This document shows positions 29,986-50,647 of a stretch of 64,000 nucleotides of DNA, in pieces. The translations under genes and the position numbers were made by a program. Source of the DNA: Crocinitomix sp. (lineage in GTDB: Bacteria; Bacteroidota; Bacteroidia; Flavobacteriales_D; Crocinitomicaceae); the NCBI GenBank assembly GCA_013138735.1, contig WTCE01000019.1, positions 62,001 through 126,000 of the forward strand. The letters run 5' to 3'. The number at the start of each line of letters is the position of its first letter. Within the stretch, counting starts at the first letter, position 1. The notes beneath the pieces are model-generated. The model was not told the DNA's origin. It did no database searches and saw nothing but the letters and a program-made list of their open reading frames with translations.

Positions 29986-30360
29986 AACAACTGTTCTCGA
30001 TACGATTTCAAATTACTTCGCTTTGCAAGCAAATTTAAATCACTCGAACTGACGTTGATCACTTCACAATCGCTACACTGAACCATTCGAACAGCCTGTT
30101 TACAAGCGTATTACACAGACATCAGGATGCAATGGAAGGTTGGTTTATATTTTGTGAATTGCGATTTGTGTGTTTGATTTGTGATTTGCGTGTTTTGAGT
30201 GAGGTTTGATGTGTTTATTTTCATGAAGTGGTAACGTGTGGGATTCACGTTCTTTGGGATTGGATCAAGCGCCCTAACTAATCGTTCATGCTTGAAGTAT
30301 AAGCTTAGAACTAACACCTACTCAGAACCTCATGAACTATGCCCTGAGACTTAGTTAATA

Positions 30361-30548: not shown

Positions 30549-30971
30549 ATGTTATATCAAGAGCCGTATCCAAATAATTTACCTTTAGCCCCAGAAGGTT
30601 CGAGAATGATTAATTTTTTTATTGACTTGATTATTTCAACCGCGCTTAGTCTTGTGATAATGAAAACGGTTATTTTGCCAATACAATCAACTGGCTACTA
30701 TTTTCTAGACATTGTTGTCCCAGTTGCGGTATTCACAGGAATAAGGCTCGCTTACTATTTTATTTTCGAAGCTTTTTTAGGAGGAACAATTGGGCAACGC
30801 TTAACTAAATCGCGAATTGTTACGCTTGACAAGGGCCACCCATCACTTTTTCAGTATATACTTCGCTCTCTTTCAAGACCGATTACTGGTGCTGGTTCTT
30901 TTATTTCGGATGACATTCAGTCATTTCATGATAAGAACTCTAAGACTTACGTGATTACGAAGGAGAATTAA
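30549..30971 (+). CDS. RDD-family membrane protein
   Basis: 140 residues from the ATG at 30549 (MLYQEPYPNNLPLAPEGSRM). The frame is open upstream to 30471, but a well-formed promoter lies in that extension with its -7 box 5 bases from this ATG. RDD proteins are small integral membrane proteins named for conserved Arg/Asp residues; here the first helix starts GSRMINFFIDLIISTALSLV, with the R..N.FID pattern, and the conserved Gly/Arg region is GGTIGQRLTKSRIVTL. Two or three membrane segments are seen. The role is unclear, with some relatives implicated in ion transport. It is convergent with the DUF4249 gene; a hairpin overlaps its stop codon. Confidence 0.8.
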   Translation: MLYQEPYPNNLPLAPEGSRMINFFIDLIISTALSLVIMKTVILPIQSTGYYFLDIVVPVAVFTGIRLAYYFIFEAFLGGTIGQRLTKSRIVTLDKGHPSLFQYILRSLSRPITGAGSFISDDIQSFHDKNSKTYVITKEN

Positions 30972-30999
30972 AGAGCACTTCGAGAGCCTCAGTGTTCTT
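30971..30999 (+). terminator. 3'-end hairpin of the RDD gene
   Basis: AAGAGCACT (30971-30979) pairs with AGTGTTCTT (30991-30999), one G-U wobble, around the 11-base loop TCGAGAGCCTC, in which GAG and CTC can pair further. It begins on the last base of the stop codon. The same loop with a different stem follows the LytTR gene at 37994. Confidence 0.6.
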
Positions 31000-31175
31000 A
31001 AATCATGTAAAGATCAACAAACTCCAAATAGCACAACTCACCAATTCAACCTTTGCGTTCCTTAACCTTGCAAAGGTTAACAAACTCAGCTCGTTGCAGC
31101 TCACTAACCTAACCTTAGTGTTCTTGAATCGCGAAAAATTCAACAAATGCAGAATGGCGCAATTCGCGAATTAAA
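30987..31175 (+). repeat. Three tandem 63-bp repeats
   Basis: Units at 30987-31049, 31050-31112 and 31113-31175 are degenerate copies that share the words CCTNNGNGTTC, TTAACCTT-like and ATCAACAAACTC-like segments. The unit is 21 codons long. A plus-strand frame from GTG 30992 to TAA 31172-31174 would encode 60 residues with period 21 (VFLNHVKINKL / AFLNLAKVNKL / VFLNREKFNKC). The gap to the DUF4249 gene ends at 31235 without other signals. Confidence 0.75.
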
Positions 31176-31235
31176 CTTTAGAGTTCGGCAATCACTCGAA
31201 ATGATGCTATAAGAAATAGTTCAGGTTTAAAATCT

Positions 31236-32033
31236 TTAGGGCAAGATAATACTGATCGTGTCGGTTGAGTAAGCTCCGAAAAAACCTAAAGCATTTCCAT
31301 TGAGATTAGAGGGCGGATTAGCAGGAGCAGCAGAAAAAGGTCCACTACTGAGGTTATTTGACAAGCCAACATAATAATTGTAATTGGCCTGATCCATAGA
31401 GATCATTTCCACTAATACAGTATCTCTTGGTTTAGCTTCAGATCCGAAAAATTGCGCTTGGTAATAAATGCCATTTATGAAATCATCATTTCCCAAATAG
31501 TAACCGCTATTCGCACGTCCATTTCGGAATATTTTTAATAAATAATAGTTGTCCTCTGCGCCATTATCCACCGAGTGGAAGGATATTAAATTCAATGTAT
31601 CTCCTTCAGGAACGCCAAAAGTTCCGGTCAAACTTAAATAAGTTAAGGAATCAACTTTAGGCTTTGAAGGCGCAAAGCAAGTCGCTGTAACAACACGATC
31701 CATGGCATTTATTTCAATGTCATATTTTGTTGATGGCACCACAGCAAACTCAGGCAATTTATACAAACCATTTCCTTGATGCGGAAAATCATAAACTGTT
31801 CCATCTTCAGCAATAACCGTGACTGTTGCGTCTTCAATTTTTTCAAAATTTTGATCTTGATAAACGGAACCTGTTTTAGACAGAATAATGTAATTTACCC
31901 CAACCCGATCTTTCATTACCGCCTCAACTACTAATGTTTGCTCGGCTTCATTCAATGGCAAATCAATCACTTTTTCACAGCTTGAAAAGCCTAAAACGAA
32001 AATCAGTAAGCAGAAGAAAAACAACGTTTTCAT
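31236..32033 (-). CDS. DUF4249 lipoprotein, third of three
   Basis: 265 residues. Signal peptide ends FVLGFSSC (lipidated cysteine at residue 19). The mature part starts EKVIDLPLNEAEQTLVVEAV, the standard opening of DUF4249 proteins, and ends with the NGNALGFFGAYSTDTISIIL motif typical of the family. DUF4249 lipoproteins are paired with TonB-dependent receptors in Bacteroidota and are thought to lie on the outer membrane surface, with an unknown ligand. It is the most distal gene of a receptor operon. It differs from its two paralogues throughout, so the copies are not recent. Confidence 0.88.
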   Translation of the reverse strand: MKTLFFFCLLIFVLGFSSCEKVIDLPLNEAEQTLVVEAVMKDRVGVNYIILSKTGSVYQDQNFEKIEDATVTVIAEDGTVYDFPHQGNGLYKLPEFAVVPSTKYDIEINAMDRVVTATCFAPSKPKVDSLTYLSLTGTFGVPEGDTLNLISFHSVDNGAEDNYYLLKIFRNGRANSGYYLGNDDFINGIYYQAQFFGSEAKPRDTVLVEMISMDQANYNYYVGLSNNLSSGPFSAAPANPPSNLNGNALGFFGAYSTDTISIILP

Positions 32034-32053
32034 ACTACAAAGTAACGAAAAAT

Positions 32054-32854
32054 TTATGGAATTATTATTGACATTGTATCCATCATAAAGGCTCCAAAAT
32101 ATCCAATCCCGTTCTCAATATTAGATGGAAGACCCGACGGCGCCGCACTAAACGGACTTTGGTTTAAGTTACTATTGAGCGCCGAGAAATAATCATAATT
32201 CTGTTTGTTCATTGACCATAACTCCGCGTAAACCAAATCTTCTGAATCGAATGAAATACCAAAGAAAGGCGAAGTGTACACTTCTCCATTTCCTAAATCA
32301 TCTGTTTCAATAAAAATAATATTCTCTTTAACGCCATTCACCCATAAGACAAAACGATAAAAGTTTTTCTCATCAGGATTATCAGAAACGGTATAAATAA
32401 GGACATTTGAAGTATCTCCAACCTCCTGACCAGGTCCACCAACACTCCGGAAAACGAAAAACGAATCAATTTGTGGCTTCGTCAAAGACCGTGACTCCGC
32501 ACTAAGCAACTCACCCTCATAAGTAACACTCAAACTATAGCTTGTATTTGGCAGAACGCTAAACGTTGGATGAATATAACGCCCATCAACCGTTGGGTCC
32601 TCCTCAAAAACAAAAGATTCGCCCTCATTATCTGAAACGGACACCACCGCACCCAACAACCTTTCTATCCCGCTAGGTGTGCCAGAAGAACTTATCGTCT
32701 TGGAAAGAAGCACGTAACTTTGCCCAACTAAGCTTTTCCCCACTGCCTCAACAACTATTTGAGGTTCGGTATCATTCAAAGGAATTTGCACCACCTTTTC
32801 ACAACTTGAAAGGCCGAACAAAACCACTAAAACTACTACATGAAAGCTCTTCAT
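32054..32854 (-). CDS. DUF4249 lipoprotein, second of three
   Basis: 266 residues with signal peptide ending LFGLSSC (lipidated cysteine at about 18). It opens EKVVQIPLNDTEPQIVVEAV and closes ENGIGYFGAFMMDTMSIIIP, the same frame as its neighbours. It lies 20 bases upstream of the third copy and 10 bases downstream of the first, in an operon led by the TonB-dependent receptor. The three copies have very similar lengths (265-266 residues) but only part of the sequence in common, suggesting old duplication and divergence, perhaps of ligand specificity. Confidence 0.88.
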   Translation of the reverse strand: MKSFHVVVLVVLFGLSSCEKVVQIPLNDTEPQIVVEAVGKSLVGQSYVLLSKTISSSGTPSGIERLLGAVVSVSDNEGESFVFEEDPTVDGRYIHPTFSVLPNTSYSLSVTYEGELLSAESRSLTKPQIDSFFVFRSVGGPGQEVGDTSNVLIYTVSDNPDEKNFYRFVLWVNGVKENIIFIETDDLGNGEVYTSPFFGISFDSEDLVYAELWSMNKQNYDYFSALNSNLNQSPFSAAPSGLPSNIENGIGYFGAFMMDTMSIIIP

Positions 32855-32864
32855 AAAATATAAT

Positions 32865-33662
32865 TTACGGCATAATTATCGACATGGTATCGACCATATA
32901 GACTCCAAAATAGCCAATTGCATTATCAATATTTGTAACTGGATTGGCCGGAACCGCACCAAATGGACCAGCTGTTAAGTTACTACTCAGTGTTGAAAGA
33001 TACTTGTAAGTATCCTGATCCATTGACAAAAGCTCAATATGAACCGTATCTTTCCCTTTAATTTCAGTACCAAAGATTGGAGCTGAAGTTGGTTGACCGC
33101 TTCCTAAGACGTCATCCCCGATATAATAATTACTACCTGCCTCTCCGTTTACCCATGCTTTTATACGATAGAAATTTGTTTCATCACCGTTATCCACAAA
33201 ATTATAGAACAATAAAAAGGTGGTATCCTCGGAACCAAAACCAGGGGGAATAAGAATGTAATTCAAAGAATCTAAGACGGGAAGAGAATTTGTTATACTA
33301 GACGACGACAAGGTTTTTTCTGACGTAACAACACTCAAACTATAAGCGCTATTAGGCAAAGCCTCAAATGTTGGAGCAATGTATTTACCTGGATTTAAAG
33401 GATCATGTGTAAAGATAACCTCAACACCATCCTGATCAGTAACTGTGACTACTGCATCCGTTATTTTTTCAAATCCACCATCATCATAAACACTTCCAGA
33501 TTTTGAGAGCAGGACGAAACTTTCGCCTATAAAATTTCTACCCACTGCCTCGACAACAATCTCTCGATCTGCCTCATTTAATGGAACATCAATCACTTTT
33601 TCGCATGAAAAAGAAAGAGCCAAACTTGCAAGAGCTGCGAATTGTAATGCTAATATTTTCAT
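32865..33662 (-). CDS. DUF4249 lipoprotein, first of three
   Basis: 265 residues. The signal peptide ends ASLALSFSC (cysteine at about residue 20). The mature N-terminus is EKVIDVPLNEADREIVVEAV and the end is DNAIGYFGVYMVDTMSIIMP. It starts 3 bases after the TonB receptor stop codon, so it is translationally close to the receptor and almost certainly works with it. The ligand is unknown. Confidence 0.88.
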   Translation of the reverse strand: MKILALQFAALASLALSFSCEKVIDVPLNEADREIVVEAVGRNFIGESFVLLSKSGSVYDDGGFEKITDAVVTVTDQDGVEVIFTHDPLNPGKYIAPTFEALPNSAYSLSVVTSEKTLSSSSITNSLPVLDSLNYILIPPGFGSEDTTFLLFYNFVDNGDETNFYRIKAWVNGEAGSNYYIGDDVLGSGQPTSAPIFGTEIKGKDTVHIELLSMDQDTYKYLSTLSSNLTAGPFGAVPANPVTNIDNAIGYFGVYMVDTMSIIMP

Positions 33663-33665
33663 GTC

Positions 33666-36035
33666 TTAAAATTTAAAATTATACGTGATTGAAGGAATGA
33701 TTTTGAACAAAGCTAATTGCACTGCTTCAGTTTGCCCAGTTTCTGCGTTTTCTTGAAAATCAATAGAATATGCATTCTCGCGGCCATAGGCGTTATAAAC
33801 AGAGAAATTCCAACTTGACTCAAATCGTTTTTCGATTTGTTGCTCTTCTCCAGAAACAGGATCTAAGACCGTTTTAAACTTCTTACTTTCCAAGGTCACC
33901 CCTAAATCTAAGCGGTGATACTCAGGCATTCTATACCCATTTCTTTCGCTGTATAGATTAACAATTTGTCCATCCAATTCATATTTACCACTTGGGAAAG
34001 TTACTGCATTACCTGTGTAATAAACCCATGTTGCAGATGCTGTTAGACGGTCGGTGAAATTATACATACCAACCAAGGAAATGTCATGCGTTCTATCTTG
34101 ACGTGCGGCATACCAAGCTCCCTCATTGATCCCATCAAACTTACGCTCACTTCTTGAAAGCGTATATGAAACCCAACCTGTAAATTTACCTCTTCGCTTT
34201 TTCAACAACAATTCAATCCCGTACGCTCGTCCAATCCCGTATAAGAGTTCACCTTCGACAGTTGGATTAAGTGTCACCTCAGCTCCGTCACGATAATCGA
34301 TTACGCGACGCATATCTTTATAATACACTTCTCCCGAGAATTCCAGCATATTATCAAAGAAGTTACGGAAATAACCAACCGAAACCTGATCGGCCACCTG
34401 TGGCTCAATATTATTACTTGAAGGCACCCAAATATCTGTTGGCGACGAAGAAGTAGAATTAGAGACTAAATGGATATACTGATAGGTTCTAGCATACGAC
34501 GCTTTTACTGAACTTTTTTCATCAACACTAAAATTAACGCTTAACCTAGGTGACAAACCATTATAAGAGGATACTGGCTCCCAATCTCCAAAAATAGTGG
34601 TATCGTTTACATTACCATCAACATCATAAGAGAAGATATTACCAGGCCCGATTTGCGTAAAATTTGAATAACGTAGACCATAAACAACTTTCCATCTCTT
34701 TTTTATCTTTTGCTCATTAGAAATATAAGCAGCAGACTCTAATGAATAACGATTCTCAATATCATTCAAAACAAATCCAATGTCAGATCCCGTCTCAATC
34801 TCTCCTGGACGGAAGGTATGGTGAATAATATTCCCACCAAAACTCATGGTATTATTAGAGTTGATGTAAAAATCAAAATCTTCTTTAATATTGATGTCTT
34901 GAATTTCAGATCCAATTTGAAAGGTTTCATCCCCGCCACCAAACTTAATTTTATAGTTATAATTACTAAAGACTATTGACGTGTTTCCAAACAAACGATC
35001 GCCATATAAATGGTTCCATCTGAAAGTACCTGTTGCATTCCCCCAATCGAATCCGAACTGATCAGCAAATCCAAAATTATCTCTACCAAAATAACCTGAG
35101 AGGAAGATACGGTCCTTTTTTCCGACACGATAATTTGCCTTAGCATTCAAATCATAGAAATAAAGGATAGAGTTCTGTGCTCGTTCGTCCTTTGACAATC
35201 TCAAAAAGATATCCGCATACGTTCTACGAGCAGAGACAATAAACGAGCCTTTATCTTTTACAATTGGCGCTTCAATGGTCAATTTAGAAGAAATTAAACC
35301 TATACCACCACTTACAGATAAGCGTTTTGAATTTCCCTCTTTCATTTTAATATCCATTACAGAAGAAAGTCTTCCGCCGAACTCTGCAGGTGCTCCTCCT
35401 TTATATAATTTCACATCTTTTAATGCATCCGAATTAAAAACCGAAAAGAAACCCAATAAATGTGAGGCATTATAGACAGGCGCTCCATCCAATAAAATAA
35501 GATTTTGATCTGCAGAACCACCTCTCACGTAAAACCCCGCACTACCTTCACCAGCAGACTTGACTCCTGGCAGTAATTGAAGCGTTTTCAAGATATCTTT
35601 CTCCCCAAACAATACAGGAATATTTTCAATATCTTTCATGTTTATTTTATCAACCCCCATTTCAGCAGAGGTAATGTTTTCGTCTAACTTTTCACCCGTT
35701 ACGGTTACGGTTCCAAAAACTTTGCCTTCAACCTTCATTTCAAGATCAAAGGTTTTGTTCGCGGTTAAATCCATTTCCATTGTTACGGTTTCAAACCCTA
35801 AGGACTTAATTACAAATGTATATGTGCCCGGCGCAATTGTTAGTGAATAAAAACCGTAGTCATTCGTTAAGGCACCAACTCCTGGAAGTTCGGTAACAAC
35901 AACTCTTGCCCCAATTAAATCTTCTCCACTGTCGGCATCACTTAAGTTTCCGCTCAACGTAACCTTATCCTGTCCAAAGGAAAAGAAAGCTGTAAATATA
36001 AAAATGGCACTCCAAAGTAATTTCTGCATAATCAA
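33666..36035 (-). CDS. TonB-dependent outer-membrane receptor with carboxypeptidase-regulatory-like N-domain
   Basis: 789 residues; the start may be the first ATG (36035) or the third residue (ATG at 36029), giving MQKLLWSAIFIFTAFFSFGQ as signal. Residues about 25-105 form the CarboxypepD_reg-like domain (LSGNLSDADSGEDLIGARVV). The plug (about 115-230) contains LFGEKDILKTLQLLPGVKSA and GFYVRGGSADQNLILLDGAP. The rest is the 22-stranded barrel, ending with the usual aromatic residue (SITYNFKF). The receptor takes up a large or rare nutrient using TonB and the proton motive force. Which substrate is not visible; the paired DUF4249 lipoproteins do not tell. A two-component system is divergently encoded 245 bases away. 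Confidence 0.9.
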   Translation of the reverse strand: MIMQKLLWSAIFIFTAFFSFGQDKVTLSGNLSDADSGEDLIGARVVVTELPGVGALTNDYGFYSLTIAPGTYTFVIKSLGFETVTMEMDLTANKTFDLEMKVEGKVFGTVTVTGEKLDENITSAEMGVDKINMKDIENIPVLFGEKDILKTLQLLPGVKSAGEGSAGFYVRGGSADQNLILLDGAPVYNASHLLGFFSVFNSDALKDVKLYKGGAPAEFGGRLSSVMDIKMKEGNSKRLSVSGGIGLISSKLTIEAPIVKDKGSFIVSARRTYADIFLRLSKDERAQNSILYFYDLNAKANYRVGKKDRIFLSGYFGRDNFGFADQFGFDWGNATGTFRWNHLYGDRLFGNTSIVFSNYNYKIKFGGGDETFQIGSEIQDINIKEDFDFYINSNNTMSFGGNIIHHTFRPGEIETGSDIGFVLNDIENRYSLESAAYISNEQKIKKRWKVVYGLRYSNFTQIGPGNIFSYDVDGNVNDTTIFGDWEPVSSYNGLSPRLSVNFSVDEKSSVKASYARTYQYIHLVSNSTSSSPTDIWVPSSNNIEPQVADQVSVGYFRNFFDNMLEFSGEVYYKDMRRVIDYRDGAEVTLNPTVEGELLYGIGRAYGIELLLKKRRGKFTGWVSYTLSRSERKFDGINEGAWYAARQDRTHDISLVGMYNFTDRLTASATWVYYTGNAVTFPSGKYELDGQIVNLYSERNGYRMPEYHRLDLGVTLESKKFKTVLDPVSGEEQQIEKRFESSWNFSVYNAYGRENAYSIDFQENAETGQTEAVQLALFKIIPSITYNFKF

Positions 36036-36267
36036 CTTATTAATCTTAATCTGTCTCTGACAAACAATACAAAGACGGAATTGGTTGCAAATTTGTTACA
36101 ATAATTTCACTCTTTAATTTATTTTCCACGAATAATCAAATTTCATCAATGAACGGTCATTTGCTTATATTCATTCCATGAAATAAGAAAAATAGAGAAA
36201 AGAGGGACTAACCTTGACAAAGACTTGTGTTTTGTTGATAAATAAATTCTCTTGCTAAAACATTCCA

Positions 36268-36275
36268 TAACTTTG
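36268..36275 (+). promoter_or_regulatory. -7 promoter box of the LytS kinase gene, leaderless
   Basis: TAACTTTG matches TAnnTTTG exactly. The GTG start codon of the kinase is 5 bases further on, so the mRNA should have little or no leader. No good -33 element is seen at 19-21 bases. Confidence 0.5.
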
Positions 36276-36280
36276 TCTTT

Positions 36281-37303
36281 GTGAAAAACATACTGCGTAA
36301 TTCTTTAATCATTTGGCTAATCTTTTATTTAGTCGTTAGTAGTTTGCTTTCCCCTACCGCTGATTTGCATATTGTTTTAATTCGTGTTGCGGCATTTGTT
36401 ATCCCACAGGCGCTAATTTTCTACATTAACATATTTGGCTTACTACCAAATTATTTTGAAAAGCAAAAAATGGTTTCTTACCTTATTTTGCTCATGTTAA
36501 TCGCGAGTATTCTAGCAGTTGGCTTTGGATTCATAGATACCTATTTAGACAAGGAAATGCCATTATTAATGGATCATGTTAGGGAACGAAAACTACCGTT
36601 CCTATTACTAGGACGCTTTGCTTCATTCGTTCCAGCTATAATAATAGGTGCACTTATCCGAAAATCAATTCTTTTGCAAAGGAAGACGGAAGAGAGTATG
36701 GAATTACAGAATAAAATGTTGACAGCAGAAACCAATGCATTAAAGGCTCAAATCAATCCGCACTTTTTATTTAACACACTCAACAACATCTATTCTCTCT
36801 CTCAGTTTGACAATAGTAAAACTGGGGAAGCAATTTTACAGTTATCGGATATTTTACGCTATGTCACGTATGAGGGAGATAAAAAATTCGTAACACTTGC
36901 TGCTGAGACTGAGCATATTCAAAGCTTTATTAAACTGCAATTATTACGCGACGAAGATGACAGCAATATTCATATTGATATTGACATTACCGACAAGGAC
37001 TTACAAATAATTCCGCTAATACTGATTCCATTTATTGAAAACAGTTTTAAACACGCTAACCATCATGACAAGGTGAATGGCTGGATCAAAATTAAGATCA
37101 AAGACGAAGATCAAAAATTATTACTAATCGTATCGAACACAGTGAGTGGGGAAACTGGCTCGACCAAAGACAAAGTGGGTGGTGTCGGAATGGAAAACGT
37201 TCGAAAACGACTCACTTTACTTTATCCAGGCGAGCACGATTTGGTCTTAAAAATGGATAAAAAAACTTACTCATCTATTTTGAAAATAAACCTACAAAAA
37301 TGA
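36281..37303 (+). CDS. LytS/YehU-type sensor histidine kinase
   Basis: 340 residues, starting at GTG. Four membrane segments lie in the first 128 residues (about 8-24, 38-56, 65-84, 106-126). The His_kinase domain follows: QINPHFLFNTLNNIYSLSQ, with the phospho-acceptor His at 161. The ATP-binding domain has PLILIPFIENSFKHANHHDK and GVGMENVRKRLTLLYP. The N-terminal domain is not the 5TMR-LYT sensor, so the stimulus is unknown. The response regulator is encoded immediately downstream with a 4-base overlap (ATGA). Divergent from the TonB receptor operon, whose expression it may control. Confidence 0.9.
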   Translation: MKNILRNSLIIWLIFYLVVSSLLSPTADLHIVLIRVAAFVIPQALIFYINIFGLLPNYFEKQKMVSYLILLMLIASILAVGFGFIDTYLDKEMPLLMDHVRERKLPFLLLGRFASFVPAIIIGALIRKSILLQRKTEESMELQNKMLTAETNALKAQINPHFLFNTLNNIYSLSQFDNSKTGEAILQLSDILRYVTYEGDKKFVTLAAETEHIQSFIKLQLLRDEDDSNIHIDIDITDKDLQIIPLILIPFIENSFKHANHHDKVNGWIKIKIKDEDQKLLLIVSNTVSGETGSTKDKVGGVGMENVRKRLTLLYPGEHDLVLKMDKKTYSSILKINLQK

Positions 37304-37992
37304 AATGTATCATCATTGACGACGAGCAATTAGCTCGAAATTTAGTTGAAAGTTATGTCAATAAAATTCCTTTTTTAGATTTGATTGGCTGCTATAAAAG
37401 TGGGGTTGATGCCTTAACTGTCATTCGAGAAAAAGAAATCGATCTCATTATTACTGACATTCAAATGCCTGACCTTTTAGGCACAGATTTAATTAAATCT
37501 TTGGTCGACAAACCTCTTGTAATATTCACCACTGCCTATCAAGATTATGCGATAGAAGGCTTTGAATTGGAAGCAGTAGACTATTTATTAAAACCATTTG
37601 CTTTTGACCGTTTTCTAAAAGCGGCGCAGAAAGCAAATGAACTATTCGATTTAAGAAAGATTAAAACGGAAAGTCCTGAATTTAAGACGGACTATCTCAC
37701 AGTTAAAGCAGATCATAAATTATATAAGATTTTATATTCGGACATTAAGTATATTGAAGGGATGCGGGAATACGTTTCTTTTCATATTTCTACTGGCCGG
37801 ATTACGGCCTTAATGTCTTTAAAGTCATTGGAAGAGAAATTGCCCTCTAAACATTTTATTCGCTGTCATAAATCGTTTATCGTCAATAAAAATCTTGTGA
37901 GTGCCTTGGATAGTGGTTCATTGGTGCTTGGTGAAAAAAGCATTCCAATTGGGCAATCTTATAAGGAGAAGGTAGTTGCGGAGGTTTTTTAG
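37300..37992 (+). CDS. LytTR-family response regulator
   Basis: 230 residues. The receiver domain occupies residues 1-120, with acidic pocket D7-D8, phosphorylatable D53 (LIITDIQMPDLLG), T79 (VIFTTAYQDYAIEG) and K98 (LKPFAFDRFLKA). The C-terminal LytTR DNA-binding domain (about 130-228) has DHKLYKILYSDIKYIEGMRE, YVSFHISTGRITALMSLKSL and FIRCHKSFIVNKNLVS. It is paired with the overlapping kinase gene. LytTR factors bind pairs of short direct repeats; I did not identify such a pair in the receptor promoter. A hairpin and 44-bp repeats follow its stop. Confidence 0.92.
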   Translation: MKCIIIDDEQLARNLVESYVNKIPFLDLIGCYKSGVDALTVIREKEIDLIITDIQMPDLLGTDLIKSLVDKPLVIFTTAYQDYAIEGFELEAVDYLLKPFAFDRFLKAAQKANELFDLRKIKTESPEFKTDYLTVKADHKLYKILYSDIKYIEGMREYVSFHISTGRITALMSLKSLEEKLPSKHFIRCHKSFIVNKNLVSALDSGSLVLGEKSIPIGQSYKEKVVAEVF

Positions 37993-37993
37993 A

Positions 37994-38030
37994 TTAAAAG
38001 TGCATTTCGAGAGCCTCAATGTACTTTTAA
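37994..38030 (+). terminator. 3'-end hairpin of the LytTR gene
   Basis: TTAAAAGTGCATT (37994-38006) pairs with AATGTACTTTTAA (38018-38030), one G-U wobble, around the loop TCGAGAGCCTC. It begins 2 bases after the stop codon. The loop is identical to that of the hairpin at 30971-30999, with a different stem. Confidence 0.6.
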
Positions 38031-38140
38031 CTCAATACGCCATGCTAAACCCGAGAGCCTCAATGTACTTTTAACTCAATACACCTTGCTAAATCGGAGG
38101 GTCTCAATGTACTTTTTACTCAAAATGAACTTTCATAAAG
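38009..38140 (+). repeat. Three tandem 44-bp repeats after the LytTR gene
   Basis: Units start at 38009, 38053 and 38097, each beginning GAGAGCCTCAATGTACTTTT or a near copy. A degenerate fourth copy of the core (CAATGTACCTTTTGACTCAA) is at 38220-38239. The first unit overlaps the terminator-like hairpin. The rest of the gap up to 38317 holds TCGAGAACATTTCGA-like words and no gene. Confidence 0.75.
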
Positions 38141-38317
38141 TCGAGAACATTTCGATAGTTCGACACTTCTATAAACTCAGGACTGCGTAACTCACTAATC
38201 TTAGTTCAATGCTACGCTCCAATGTACCTTTTGACTCAAACACACTACTTACTAGGCGCTAGATAAAGTAGAACACTGAGGTGCACGCAGTGCAAAACTC
38301 GAAGTGTGGATATTCAA

Positions 38318-40351
38318 CTACTTCAAATGATCATCTAACCAAGTATAAAATTCACGGTGCCAAAAGACGCCATTTTGTGGAGAAAGAATCCAGTGGTTTT
38401 CGTCAGGGAACAAAATCATACGACTATCAATGCCTTTGATTTGTAGTGTTTGAAACGCTTCCATCCCTTGATTTAGTGGGACTCTAAAATCTTTTTCACC
38501 ATGAAAGATGAGCATTGAGGTGTTCCAGTTTTTAGCTAGTTTATGCGGAGAGTGTTTTGCATAACTTGGTGGTACGATTGGATTAAAATAGGGTCCACCA
38601 ATATCTTTATTTGCAAAGAACAATTCTTCGGTTGTTCCGTACCAAGATTCTAGGTTATACAATCCAGCATGCGCGATAAATGTTTTAAAACGATTTTGAT
38701 GCATTCCAGCCAAATAATAAACTGAATAACCACCATAACTTGCTCCAATTGCACCAATTCTATTCTTGTCAATGTATGGCTCTTTTTTCAACTCATCTAC
38801 CGCCGAAATGTAGTCATCTATCGGTTGACCTCCCCAATCGCCAGAAATGGCATCATTCCATTCTTGACCAAAGCCAGGTAACCCTCTTCTGTTTGGCGCA
38901 ATAATGATATAATCATTTGCCGCCATTAATTGAAAGTTCCAACGGTAAGAAAAGAATTGACTAACGGCACTTTGCGGCCCACCTTGACAATATAATAAGG
39001 CTGGGTATTTTTTATCTTTATCAAAGTTTGGTGGGAAAATCACCCATACCAATTGCTTTTTACCATCTGTAGTGGTGACCCAACGTTTTTCAATATTACC
39101 AATCTCTAAATCGTCATAAATCTCCTTGTTAACATCTGTCAATTGTGTTTCGGTACCTTTTTTAATATTCACGGCGTAAATATCTGTTGGATGATTCATA
39201 GATTGTTTACCGCCAATTAATTTATCCCCAGCAAATGCAATTGAGGTATAATTATGTACTCCTTCTGTAATTTGGCGCACGGTTTTCTTTTTTAAATCAT
39301 ATTCAAACAGTTGATAAGTTGCTTCTTTAACTGATTTAAAATAAATCTTGTCGCCTGTATCATCCCAAACATAACTTGATACCGTTAAATCAAATTTTTG
39401 CGTCAAATTAGTAGTCAATTGTGTTTCGTAATCATGCACCAAAATATCATTCTTATCTGACTCAAAACCATCTTGCTCCATGCTTAACCAAGCAATTTTT
39501 TTACCATCTGCAGAATAGCTTGGATCTAAATCATATCCCGGATATTTCTTCGTCATATTATTGGTGTTCCCTAATAATATATTGTACACATACAAATCTG
39601 AATTGGTGCTAATGGCATAGTTTAAACCTTCCATTTTTTTACACGCATATACAATGCTATTGCCATCTGGCGATACAGTGATTTGCTCCATCCCACCGAA
39701 TGGCTTCAAAGGCGCGTCATAATTTTCACCTTTCATTATATCAACACCCTCCCCCTGAATCTTACCTTGTTGAAACACTGCAAAGAAAATATGAGATCGT
39801 GTACCATCATCCCAAGAACCCCAATGTCTGTACATTAAATCGTCAATCACACGTGCATTGGACTGTGGCAAATCTGACACTATTTCTTGCGATTTGACCA
39901 AATTCAATTTAACATCCTTAATGAAAACAACTTTTTTGCCATCAGGAAAATATTTGAATCCATTGATTTGACCCGCTTCAAATGATATTTGTTTCAATTC
40001 TGTTCCGTCAGGATTAACTTCGAAAATTGCAGTTGAAGAACCGTCGTCTGGTGTTGCCAAAAATCCAATTTTTTGACCATCAGGTCGCCATTGCGCATCA
40101 AACTCACTTCCTTCTCTATTGGTGATTTGCTTTGGCGTACCGCCTTCTGCAGGAATAATATACAATTCACTACTTCCGCCATTTTTCTCTAAATCATATG
40201 TCTTCAAACTAAAAAGAACCTGCTCGCCATCAGGAGAAACTTGAATATTTCCAACTCGTTTTAATTTCCATAATAATTCTGGGGTCATTCTATTCTGCGA
40301 CATTGCACCAATCGATATGATGAGTGTAATGAGTAGTAATGCTTTTTTCAT
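38318..40351 (-). CDS. Exported S9-family prolyl-oligopeptidase-like peptidase
   Basis: 677 residues. Signal peptide 1-19 (MKKALLLITLIISIGAMSQ) sends it to the periplasm or beyond; no T9SS tail is seen. The N-terminal part is a TolB/WD40-like propeller (SPDGEQVLFSLKTYDL, AQWRPDGQKIGFLATPDDGS, PSYSADGKKIAWLSME). The C-terminal alpha/beta-hydrolase domain carries the catalytic triad: S538 in GASYGGY, D621 in GEKDFRVP and H653 in DENHWIL. The family cleaves dipeptides or oligopeptides (acylaminoacyl-peptidase/DPP type). It is the third gene of an rbfA-permease-peptidase operon, 4 bases after the permease stop. Confidence 0.9.
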   Translation of the reverse strand: MKKALLLITLIISIGAMSQNRMTPELLWKLKRVGNIQVSPDGEQVLFSLKTYDLEKNGGSSELYIIPAEGGTPKQITNREGSEFDAQWRPDGQKIGFLATPDDGSSTAIFEVNPDGTELKQISFEAGQINGFKYFPDGKKVVFIKDVKLNLVKSQEIVSDLPQSNARVIDDLMYRHWGSWDDGTRSHIFFAVFQQGKIQGEGVDIMKGENYDAPLKPFGGMEQITVSPDGNSIVYACKKMEGLNYAISTNSDLYVYNILLGNTNNMTKKYPGYDLDPSYSADGKKIAWLSMEQDGFESDKNDILVHDYETQLTTNLTQKFDLTVSSYVWDDTGDKIYFKSVKEATYQLFEYDLKKKTVRQITEGVHNYTSIAFAGDKLIGGKQSMNHPTDIYAVNIKKGTETQLTDVNKEIYDDLEIGNIEKRWVTTTDGKKQLVWVIFPPNFDKDKKYPALLYCQGGPQSAVSQFFSYRWNFQLMAANDYIIIAPNRRGLPGFGQEWNDAISGDWGGQPIDDYISAVDELKKEPYIDKNRIGAIGASYGGYSVYYLAGMHQNRFKTFIAHAGLYNLESWYGTTEELFFANKDIGGPYFNPIVPPSYAKHSPHKLAKNWNTSMLIFHGEKDFRVPLNQGMEAFQTLQIKGIDSRMILFPDENHWILSPQNGVFWHREFYTWLDDHLK

Positions 40352-46795: not shown

Positions 46796-49267
46796 TCAAG
46801 GTTGGATAATTTTTTCTGTTTTTTGAATGCCATTCACATTGACTACAGAACAAATGTAAATCCCAGCGTTTAGTTGATTTATTGCGATTCTATTTAGCTT
46901 CTCGCTCAATAAAATCTCTAGGATTAAATCACCTTGTAAATTATGAATTTGGGCGTAATTATCAATTGGATATTGTTCCAATTCAAGCGCAATAATAACC
47001 TCTGGTCTTTCGAAGTTTTGAGAAATTTTAATATCCGGTCTGGCTTCTCCACTATCTTCTTTAATCGGTGAATGTGGGCCCCCACCTATTTCCAAAAAAC
47101 TAGTATAGCGATACCAAATATTTCCAGAAATTGGTAAATCACTTACTCCTTCCGCATCATCATCATAATAACCTTCAACTCCATACAACCACGTCTCCAT
47201 TGCTTCGTGCAAACTATGATCTATTAACCAAGGTCCCATATGATATGATCTTGAAGAGAATATTGGCATCACTGCAGGTTTACGTTCCGACAATGCAATG
47301 GCACGAATGCGATACGTATGATAATTATAAATACTTGAGCCATCACCATAGACATGGTTTGTTCGATAATGATGCAATAAAATTCTATCTACTCTTTCGG
47401 CAAGTGCAATCGATTCGTCATCTGAAGTATATCCTAAATAAATTTCGCTGATGATGCCCATCTCATGCGCTCGTTCATCAATCAACTCAAGTTGGTCGCT
47501 ATAAAAATCAAAAGCGCCTGCATTGGTGCATGGGTAGCCTCCAGGTTCAAGGTAATTTTCACAATAATATGCAAACACATCACCCAACACATCTGTCCAA
47601 AATTCGAACTCTAAATTTAAGACATCAATTTTTTGGAACCAACTGTCTCCAAATAATGAATTAAACACTTCGATTTTATCAAATGATGCATTCTTTTCAC
47701 CAACAGCAGCCACTTGTGCAATTCCGTAATCTTCTTTTGCGCGTTGAATAAAATTGGCCAACACAATCGCTTCATCCGGGTCGGTTAAATCGTATTTGTG
47801 CGTATTGATATAGGATAAATTATAGAATACCAAATAATTAAAGCCATTGTCTTGTGCAAACTCGAGTAAATCCGTCTCAGCATCTTCATCTCCCAAAATA
47901 AATTTAAAATCATTTACGTATAAGCCTACTAAAGGAATGCGCTCGAAATAGGCGATTGGTTCGGGTACATATTCAAATGCACCTGCATCTGGTGCTCCTG
48001 CCAAATCTCTATGCTGATTGACATAATCTGTTGTTAGGTCATTAGCAACACCATAATTCACGGCTGGCGATTCATGTGTTAAGCGATAATCACCTGCCTC
48101 AGCATCAACGAAATTTTGTCCTTCTGCTGTTGCACTATACGTATTTGTGGAAACAACAACTAAATCTGAAAGATCGAATGAAAGATAAGGTGCAAATTCA
48201 AATAAATCGGGCGCAATAACGTAAGGTTCAACAAAAATATTATTCTCTATCCGACTTTCATCTGAGGCAGATTCCGTATTTTCAATTACTAAATTATAAG
48301 TCCCTGAATTAACCAGCGTATTGTGCATGAAAGTGAGTTCATTATGGTCAACCCCACCCTCGGCGGTATAAAACTCAACCTTTACGGCACCTGAACCAAT
48401 GGCTCCATTATCCTCAAAAACATTATTGTAAATCTGAAAGAAACCGCCTTTTTCCGCATTCACACCGTAGAGGTCTGTATTGGAAATTTTATTCTTTTCA
48501 ATGAGCACATCAGACTCCATTGATACTTTAATTCCCGAAATATTGGTTTCTTGAATGTGATTGTTTCGAATGATCGCGTTTGATCCGTACAATGTAATAC
48601 CATTGCCTAATACATTTGTGATCTCACAGTTCTCAATCAATAAATTACTAATTCCATATGGAAAAAGTGGCCCACAAGCGTCATCCAATATACCATAGCG
48701 ATAAAGCGGATGCCCCATCACAATACCATTCCCACAATTTAAGATCGAAAGGTTTGACAAGTGACAATCTTGTAATTCAAATGTTCCTTCATTTGCTGTT
48801 AAATCACACCTTGGATCATCTCTTGACATAACCGCAGCACGTCCAGTATTCTCAATTAAAACATGATCAACTTTAAAGTGATTGGATAAATCGAAAAAAT
48901 GAAGTCCATAACCACTTGTGCCTTCTATATGAATGCCCAAATCAATTCCATCTTCACCACTGCCAGATATTTGTACATAATTACATGCTTGAAATTTGAT
49001 TCCATAATCGGCGGCAATTCCGTCAATCGAAACAACTCCGCCACAATTTTTTATTTGAATTGGATTAAGAAATGACCCTTCTAAATTCTCGAGTCTTAGT
49101 TCTGACCTTTCACCTCCCTCTAAACAAACTGTTTGCCCAGGCAAAACGGAAGTCCCATCAAAAATGTCATCCGTGGTTTCGACTAAATAATCACAACCGC
49201 AATCTTGGGAAAGGCTCACAAGTGAAAAACTAAAAAGGACACTGAGTAAGGTAATTAATTTCATCAT
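46796..49267 (-). CDS. Secreted right-handed beta-helix protein with T9SS sorting domain
   Basis: 823 residues from the ATG at 49267 (MMKLITLLSVLFSFSLVSLS, signal peptide to about residue 21); the frame extends 12 codons further up but the extra part is not signal-like. Residues about 100-440 show regular beta-helix turns (LLIENCEITNVLGNGITLYG, NAIIRNNHIQETNISGIKVS), as in pectate-lyase-like proteins. From about 445 a second globular region begins (YFERIPLVGLYVNDFKFIL, LLEFAQDNGFNYLVFYNLSY), with a glycosidase-like or TIM-barrel look. The last 75 residues (YAQIHNLQGDLILEILLSEK, LNAGIYICSVVNVNGIQKTE) are a T9SS C-terminal sorting domain. The substrate may be a polysaccharide; this is inference. 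Confidence 0.78.
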   Translation of the reverse strand: MMKLITLLSVLFSFSLVSLSQDCGCDYLVETTDDIFDGTSVLPGQTVCLEGGERSELRLENLEGSFLNPIQIKNCGGVVSIDGIAADYGIKFQACNYVQISGSGEDGIDLGIHIEGTSGYGLHFFDLSNHFKVDHVLIENTGRAAVMSRDDPRCDLTANEGTFELQDCHLSNLSILNCGNGIVMGHPLYRYGILDDACGPLFPYGISNLLIENCEITNVLGNGITLYGSNAIIRNNHIQETNISGIKVSMESDVLIEKNKISNTDLYGVNAEKGGFFQIYNNVFEDNGAIGSGAVKVEFYTAEGGVDHNELTFMHNTLVNSGTYNLVIENTESASDESRIENNIFVEPYVIAPDLFEFAPYLSFDLSDLVVVSTNTYSATAEGQNFVDAEAGDYRLTHESPAVNYGVANDLTTDYVNQHRDLAGAPDAGAFEYVPEPIAYFERIPLVGLYVNDFKFILGDEDAETDLLEFAQDNGFNYLVFYNLSYINTHKYDLTDPDEAIVLANFIQRAKEDYGIAQVAAVGEKNASFDKIEVFNSLFGDSWFQKIDVLNLEFEFWTDVLGDVFAYYCENYLEPGGYPCTNAGAFDFYSDQLELIDERAHEMGIISEIYLGYTSDDESIALAERVDRILLHHYRTNHVYGDGSSIYNYHTYRIRAIALSERKPAVMPIFSSRSYHMGPWLIDHSLHEAMETWLYGVEGYYDDDAEGVSDLPISGNIWYRYTSFLEIGGGPHSPIKEDSGEARPDIKISQNFERPEVIIALELEQYPIDNYAQIHNLQGDLILEILLSEKLNRIAINQLNAGIYICSVVNVNGIQKTEKIIQP

Positions 49268-49599: not shown

Positions 49600-49605
49600 A
49601 ATGTA

Positions 49606-49718
49606 CTTATAAAGAAAGGTGGAGGGACCGGCCCTTTGAAACCTTGGCAACCGAACTCATGTAAATGAGGACAAGGTGCCAATTCCTGTTCGTCGCAACT
49701 TTGCTAGAACAATATGAG
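49606..49718 (+). ncRNA. SAM-I (S-box) riboswitch
   Basis: The conserved core is unmistakable: AAAGGTGGAGGGACCGGCCC, TTTGAAACCTTGGCAACC, a variable arm, then AAGGTGCCAATTCC. Closing helix P1 is CTTAT (49606-49610) with ATGAG (49714-49718). The kink-turn and the SAM-binding joining regions are all present. SAM-I aptamers switch off genes for methionine and SAM synthesis when SAM is abundant. No U-tracted terminator is obvious between 49719 and 49773, so the expression platform is unresolved. Its former immediate target, metH1, is destroyed; the next intact genes are the QueF-like gene and metH2. Confidence 0.95.
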
Positions 49719-49773
49719 ATTTCAACATTCGCTTTAAAACGAAATTCCGGTCACACTACTTTTCATTCAGATT

Positions 49774-50407: not shown

Positions 50408-50414
50408 TTTAGAC

Positions 50415-50483
50415 AATAGATCGCTATGCTATTAGAGATTAGACCGCTTCGCTGTTAGATATTAGACCGCTTCGCTGTTAGAT
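50415..50483 (+). repeat. Three tandem 23-bp repeats between queF-like and metH2 genes
   Basis: Two identical units (50438-50460 and 50461-50483, ATTAGACCGCTTCGCTGTTA and on) and a degenerate one before them (50415-50437). The TCGCTTCGCTGTTAG word recurs at 20443. The gap up to 50647 then continues with AATTGATAATTGA-type words that run up to the metH2 start codon and a TTCGATACTTCGAGAGGTTC segment. Confidence 0.8.
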
Positions 50484-50647
50484 ATTAGACATTCGACGGT
50501 GGTTAATGAGAATGACACACAACAAAATTCAATTGAAATTTGATAATTGAATAATTGATAATTACAGCCTTCGATACTTCGAGAGGTTCAGCACGGCGTA
50601 GCTCAAGGCAGCGCATTGATAATTGAAAAATTGCTAATTGAAAAAGA

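Follow-up and report, generated by a model that had tools for sequence, protein, structure and literature searches.

Behind two genes in one stretch of bacterial DNA, the same 11-base word sits at the tip of hairpins whose stems differ in sequence. The stretch, hereafter the window, comprises 64,000 nucleotides of a Crocinitomix sp. contig (WTCE01000019.1). What sort of element keeps its tip while its stem changes? An earlier note on this DNA had read the pair as covariation and as the sign of a functional RNA structure at the 3' ends of genes, such as a terminator family or a protein-binding element.

Architecture of the two hairpins

The first hairpin (30971–30999, forward strand) lies at the 3' end of a gene for an RDD family protein (PF06271; 30471–30971, forward strand), the last base of whose stop codon is also the first base of the hairpin. 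The second (37994–38030, forward strand) begins 2 nt after the stop of a response regulator gene with a LytTR domain (PF00072 and PF04397; 37300–37992, forward strand). Folding shows that both are real over exactly the spans that had been proposed, with RNA folding z-scores of −2.6 and −4.7, respectively. RNA and DNA folding concur on the architecture, namely a stem, a 2-nt TC bulge, three GAG/CTC base pairs and an AGC triloop. In the RDD hairpin, a 9-bp stem (30971–30979 with 30991–30999) carries the bulge at 30980–30981, GAG at 30982–30984, the triloop at 30985–30987 and CTC at 30988–30990; in the LytTR hairpin, a 13-bp stem (37994–38006 with 38018–38030) carries the same parts at 38007–38008, 38009–38011, 38012–38014 and 38015–38017. 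The word TCGAGAGCCTC is indeed identical in both hairpins (30980–30990 and 38007–38017), but it is not the open loop that it had been taken for. When folded as DNA, the tip strand is more stable than its complement in both cases (−5.6 versus −4.4 and −8.4 versus −6.7 kcal/mol).

With up to one mismatch, the window contains three matches to TCGAGAGCCTC against 0.27 expected, and none of 100 shuffles reached three. The third match, with one mismatch (38051–38061), falls within a 44-bp tandem array of 2.6 copies (38008–38123, forward strand), in which the tip and the 3' arm are repeated without the 5' arm; this copy (38034–38078) shows no fold (z = +0.95). A recurring word without flanking pairing, which the earlier note named as the outcome that would speak against its reading, describes a minority of the copies, such as the one at 38051. 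Across 30900–38400, no covariance model of Rfam 15 matched at E ≤ 1.

The surroundings hold other features. The gap behind the RDD gene (30990–31235) measures about 265 bp here as opposed to some tens of bases in the relatives G003, G005 and G006, so it has been filled up with non-coding sequence. Other dispersed repeats at 38263–38317 and 29992–30059 recur at many places in the host genome, as seen by whole-genome matching. A tandem array with a 23-bp unit (TTAGATATTAGACCGCTTCGCTG, 3.6 copies) lies at 50409–50490, and a SAM riboswitch (RF00162, 72.9 bits) at 49604–49720.

Copies in the host genome and its relatives

The host genome (G000) comprises 6.84 Mb in 188 contigs and, at 6.8 Mb, exceeds all eight congeners (2.9–6.1 Mb) in size. 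The genome-wide search that the earlier note had called for returned 46 copies of CGAGAGCCTCA, 24 and 22 by strand, and none of the reversed word. Pairing around these copies was evaluated against shuffles in which the 3' arms were dealt among the 46 copies. Since some stems were inherited together, the cells of this comparison count copies, not independent events; with this reading, 168 of the 184 cells for pairs 1–4 from the tip hold Watson-Crick pairs (mean of the shuffles 133, maximum of 1000 shuffles 149), and pairs 5–14 are standard in 323 of 460 (shuffles 218 ± 9, maximum of 2000 shuffles 251). The covariation suspected from two hairpins is therefore real: stems differ and stay paired. 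Examples of stems common by descent are L001, L002, L005, L012 and L036, and the RDD copy belongs to a group with the stem AAGAGCACT...AGTGTTCTT. Position 5 of the stem holds G-T in 25 copies and G-A in 8, and 38 of the 46 have G-C at position 7. Conservation thus extends from the tip to some letters of the stem, and the remainder covaries. The constant part can be written TTC-GAG-NNN-CTC-A (bulge, 3-bp stem, triloop), on a stem that is variable in both letters and length and mostly paired. The copies are mostly single, not dimers, and lie mostly behind genes, which bears out the proposed location at gene 3' ends: 42 of the 46 are outside open reading frames (ORFs) called by a simple longest-first rule, and one is in a divergent gap.

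Presence among relatives is patchy. The word TTCGAGAGCCTCA was found in 19 of 59 genomes, the host included, with a single match overall for the reversed control. It has 45 copies in the host, none in four of the eight congeners and 1–4 in the other four, and 28, 25 and 13 copies in G009, G043 and G049, respectively. Stems are genome-specific, with GACGGTCC...GGAACCGTC in G009 and CGTTGCC...GGCAACG in G043, where inverted clusters and a 22-bp array also occur. Of 148 genomes sampled in the phylum, 134 contain the wider pattern YTTCGAGNNNCTCAR, most of them about as often as its control; in 14 it occurs at least ten times, and 12 of these 14 have at least five times their own control. Matches against reversed control are 66 to 2 in the host, 94 to 0 in G059, 86 to 0 in G063 and 101 to 0 in G064; as a check, the unamplified genomes G010, G018, G037, G042 and G044 gave 1/0, 1/5, 3/5, 2/2 and 0/1. 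G123 has 25 matches, against 0–3 across five sampled congeners. A second tip class, YTTCGACNNGCTCAR, is frequent in G067 (75 versus 2 in the control), G065 (70 versus 2) and G009 (41 versus 0); G059 and G061 lack it. The densest occurrence seen is that of G063 (the genome of L242), whose 86 matches fall within 1.1 Mb.

Orthologous gene ends were compared in sister genomes that are about 77–84% identical to the host in aligned genes, flanks too diverged to yield a clean empty site with junctions. The end of the RDD gene has no hairpin in any of three relatives (G003, G005 and G006). Behind the LytTR gene, G003 and G005 likewise have no hairpin, and G006 carries a related one with the tip ATCGAAGACCTCA and a different outer stem. 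At a third site (C26:144126), where the element starts directly behind a stop codon, G006 has the related word TTTCGAGGAGCTCA, and nothing similar was found in G003, G005, G002 or G007. Two host terminators contain a 23-nt module with the tip. Their G003 orthologues retain the 8-bp stem, the second with a single base change, and have a loop of 15 or 5 nt instead of the module; at the second, the stem in G005 is altered yet still paired and carries a 5-nt loop. At the first, the core is inverted in G006, which may reflect an inversion or a separate arrival, and G005, G007 and G002 have other terminators without the core. The orthologous terminators thus indicate that one loop is combined with different stems in part because a single module lies within hairpins that were different to begin with. 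For the element C141:2282 (L037), no orthologous terminator was readable in G003 or G005. The core faces in opposite directions in orthologous terminators of two congeners, L413 (G006:C18, ~48571–48597) and L389 (~1700–1730).

Dimers, arrays and other phyla

In G064 (Chitinophagaceae record L180), all 20 fetched neighbour pairs face in opposite directions, 33–40 nt apart; the pairs had been selected as opposite neighbours, stems being no criterion. Each dimer combines one ATGY stem with one stem of another type, mostly ACCC, and the ends are mostly TGTCA and TGACA. The spacers keep their length and are not conserved in sequence, a pattern compatible with old structures under selection and equally with recent jumps. 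The same two stem types are joined in record L200, from Deltaproteobacteria, and also, apart from changes at one or two bases, in L177 and L197, both labelled Chloroflexi. Over the scanned loci there are 52 opposite neighbours within 130 bp. Neighbours differ at two or more of five stem bases at 27 of 32 opposite-facing loci versus 6 of 13 same-facing ones. Equal stems in opposite copies would amount to long perfect palindromes, which bacteria would tend to lose.

When named genomes were scanned for an exact 15-mer, at least 119 stretches matched; 97 stretches came from viral contigs. Because many chance matches are expected (about 480 by estimate in the named-genome collection), pairing was counted instead of matches. 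Taxon labels rest on record titles for 80 stretches among the matches listed. At least three further pairs beyond the tip are present in 88 of the 151 cellular matches among those listed, versus 13 of 99 viral ones. Likewise, pairs 2–5 are standard in 130, 136, 106 and 107 of the 151 cellular copies listed (shuffled 61, 66, 65 and 73), and in 37, 40, 33 and 26 of the 76 distinct contexts among the 99 viral matches (shuffled 27, 29, 29 and 26). A phage origin was rejected since the viral matches pair at about the shuffled level; a few viral contigs, e.g. L328 and L325, do carry paired copies. Records with at least four further pairs are labelled as Bacteroidota groups, Chloroflexi, Deltaproteobacteria, Acidobacteria, Neomarinimicrobiota, Treponema and Falkowbacteria. 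Among the matches listed, the 67 cellular copies with five of five pairs have 36 distinct 5-bp stems. With hardly any stem, the matches in Streptomyces (L165) and Methanosarcina (L207) are probably due to chance.

Of 80 multi-phylum copies with at least three further pairs, 25 are inside ORFs (simple caller), 15 in ++ gaps, 16 in −− gaps, 13 in convergent and 5 in divergent gaps, and 6 are undetermined. There is thus no sense-strand bias at these loci. Together with the inverted dimers and the tandem arrays, this points to a DNA-borne, REP-like repeat; the 25 copies inside ORFs weigh against that reading. Of the functional RNA structure suggested earlier, the structured element itself is supported.

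Known repeat systems and competing explanations

Repeats resembling TTCGACAAGCTCAG are common in bacteria. By behaviour the present element is a REP: its short palindrome is dispersed in many copies (in the host 46 versus 0 for the exact word and 66 versus 2 for the wider pattern), it is extragenic and avoids promoter-side gaps, and it forms opposite-facing dimers or mosaics, yet it shows no enrichment of a GTAG or CGTC foot and, at the loci scanned, no link to a RAYT. Among copies with at least three consecutive pairs, a 5' foot of GT[AG]G occurs in 7 of 36 of the host's own copies (6.3 when shuffled), 14 of 165 in the next set (18.6), 0 of 40 in G064 (0.9), 3 of 18 in G123 (1.6) and 1 of 17 in G009 (4.7). 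The corresponding numbers for a CGTC foot are 1/36, 9/165, 0/40, 0/18 and 0/17, with 0.8, 9.6, 0.6, 0.7 and 0.6 in the shuffles.

The comparison with known systems is instructive. GTAG REPs, BIMEs and REPINs share with the element the short dispersed intergenic palindromes, the stem irregularity, the opposite-facing dimers and the arrays; BIMEs of E. coli combine different REP types, according to passages of PMC8266576. Unlike in GTAG REPs, however, the constant part is the tip, not the foot, the stems vary within one genome, and no RAYT lies beside the copies scanned. CGTC REPs, as described in sections of Di Nocera et al. 2013 (PMC3733652), are likewise REP-like, form dimers and are without a dedicated transposase, but their loops are of 4–5 nt, as opposed to a bulge, three pairs and a triloop here, where the CGTC foot is not enriched; in those sections TTCGA occurs once, inside a palindrome hosting another repeat. 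The end hairpins of IS200/IS605 elements are also strand-specific and bulged, and are read by an HUH enzyme. Here, in contrast, there is no insertion sequence between hairpins, and the G064 dimers enclose just the short spacers. According to passages of PMC8266576, irregularities in the loop or stem of single-stranded hairpins are contacted by TnpA-REP and by the transposases of IS200/IS605; by analogy, recognition of the tip is plausible. A search by letters or topic found no tip-defined bacterial repeat family among the REP papers listed, nor in the portions of PMC12306157 and PMC2267715 covered, and a consensus given solely in a figure or supplement would escape such a search.

Two alternatives place the function of the element in the transcript. 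That it is a family of intrinsic terminators with the tip as favoured loop, one of the options of the earlier note, we regard as highly improbable, and as its main identity this was rejected because T-tracts are too few: one follows in sense behind 5 of the 46 host copies, and a T or A tract lies on either side in 14. A terminator scan of the window listed neither hairpin, which it could miss as its model wants at least three G-C pairs and a loop of 3–8. Some copies do form the apex of terminator stems, a few of them within clear bidirectional terminators (L009, L024, L034, L037 and L038), and the two host terminators with the module have orthologous counterparts, but those in G003 are without the tip. 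Better placed, though still unlikely, is a 3'-UTR RNA element, whose tip would be bound by an RNA-binding protein or RNase and would set mRNA stability, end formation or translation; selection on RNA would keep tip and pairing. The G-T at position 5 in 25 copies, a wobble on the tip strand, agrees with this, as do the positions of copies: in the host, the own-strand gene is the closer one for 12 of 13 copies within convergent gaps, and 7 of 7 in ++ gaps are within 23 nt of the stop (41 of the 46 copies used, those near locus ends being omitted from gene-placement counts), and in G009 all four convergent copies are nearer the own-strand gene, two of them nearly equidistant. Such sense copies close behind stops in G000 and G009 would also be explained by an RNA role, and in the host's own family this role is possible. 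The preference falls to 3 of 6 convergent copies in G123, however, and to 9 of 13 at the multi-phylum loci, where ++ and −− gaps are used almost equally; the strong patchiness among congeners and the opposite-facing dimers, whose two tips can never both be in sense, also argue against it.

The other alternative, that the element is a relic or satellite of a RAYT (TnpA-REP), such as subclass 2.6 of Bacteroidetes, appears to us distinctly improbable. In its favour, Y1 proteins with YIHxNP-type motifs exist in the host and relatives, PF01797 proteins being present in 11 of 12 genomes of a first set (five in the host), and parts of PMC6006769 describe subclass 2.6 genes as flanked by atypical structures. 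Against it, an intact tip was found near just 1 of 30 Y1 loci, about 1.4 kb from an IS200-like gene (L096, G049), a relaxed search at the same loci gave scattered imperfect matches only, and stemmed tips also occur outside Bacteroidetes. Moreover, 4 of 11 copy-bearing genomes of a second set, which overlaps the first in G043, have no PF01797 match: G043, G062, G065 and G067 hold 35, 49, 29 and 79 YTTCGAGNNNCTCAR-type matches (controls 2, 1, 3 and 5), where G062 (the genome of L182) is titled a complete chromosome and G065 and G067 may be incomplete. A Y1 enzyme is hence unneeded for the present existence of the copies, although it may once have been there and since been lost. With no link across 30 loci and absence from these four genomes, a Y1/RAYT transposase was rejected as the driver. 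Genes beside the arrays were likewise rejected as movers, since the ten proteins compared, at four loci, have no mobility family in common; they belong to secretion-tail, metabolic and AAA/PD-(D/E)XK families, and one is without a family. As a separate observation, a small GACCCCTTCAGGGTC-like palindrome lies beside a Y1 transposase gene (L105, 1986–2161; L097, 949 and 2203) in four copies with 53–55 bp spacing, and is a candidate REP of the adjoining Y1 enzyme.

We therefore favour, as probable but well short of certain, the explanation that both window hairpins belong to a family of dispersed, REP-like repeats of hairpin form, which are recognised by their tip and spread as folded single-stranded DNA. 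The element would move as a single DNA strand in folded form, and an enzyme would read the tip and the bulge, which would leave the stem with the sole requirement to pair. Its landing places would be the ends of genes and the apex of pre-existing hairpins, including terminators. Once transcribed, a copy would form a 3' hairpin and may incidentally stabilise the mRNA or join a terminator. The binding element of the earlier note survives in this form, in that the conservation of the tip, judged from the letters, suggests recognition by some factor. The responsible enzyme is probably not the usual RAYT (TnpA-REP). More tentatively, and with the odds rather against it, the element may represent a third bacterial REP superfamily, defined by a bulged tip, present in several phyla, arranged in some genomes as opposite-facing dimers whose two stem types recur across distant phyla, and spread by an enzyme independent of RAYTs that can insert hairpins into the apices of others, such as terminators.

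If this is true, REP searches based on the foot would overlook a single tip-defined family to which many short palindromes in Bacteroidota, Chloroflexi and other groups belong, and terminators would have a route for gaining new apices. Because the tip is constant, copies can be counted in any genome, and the enzyme is open to pull-down.
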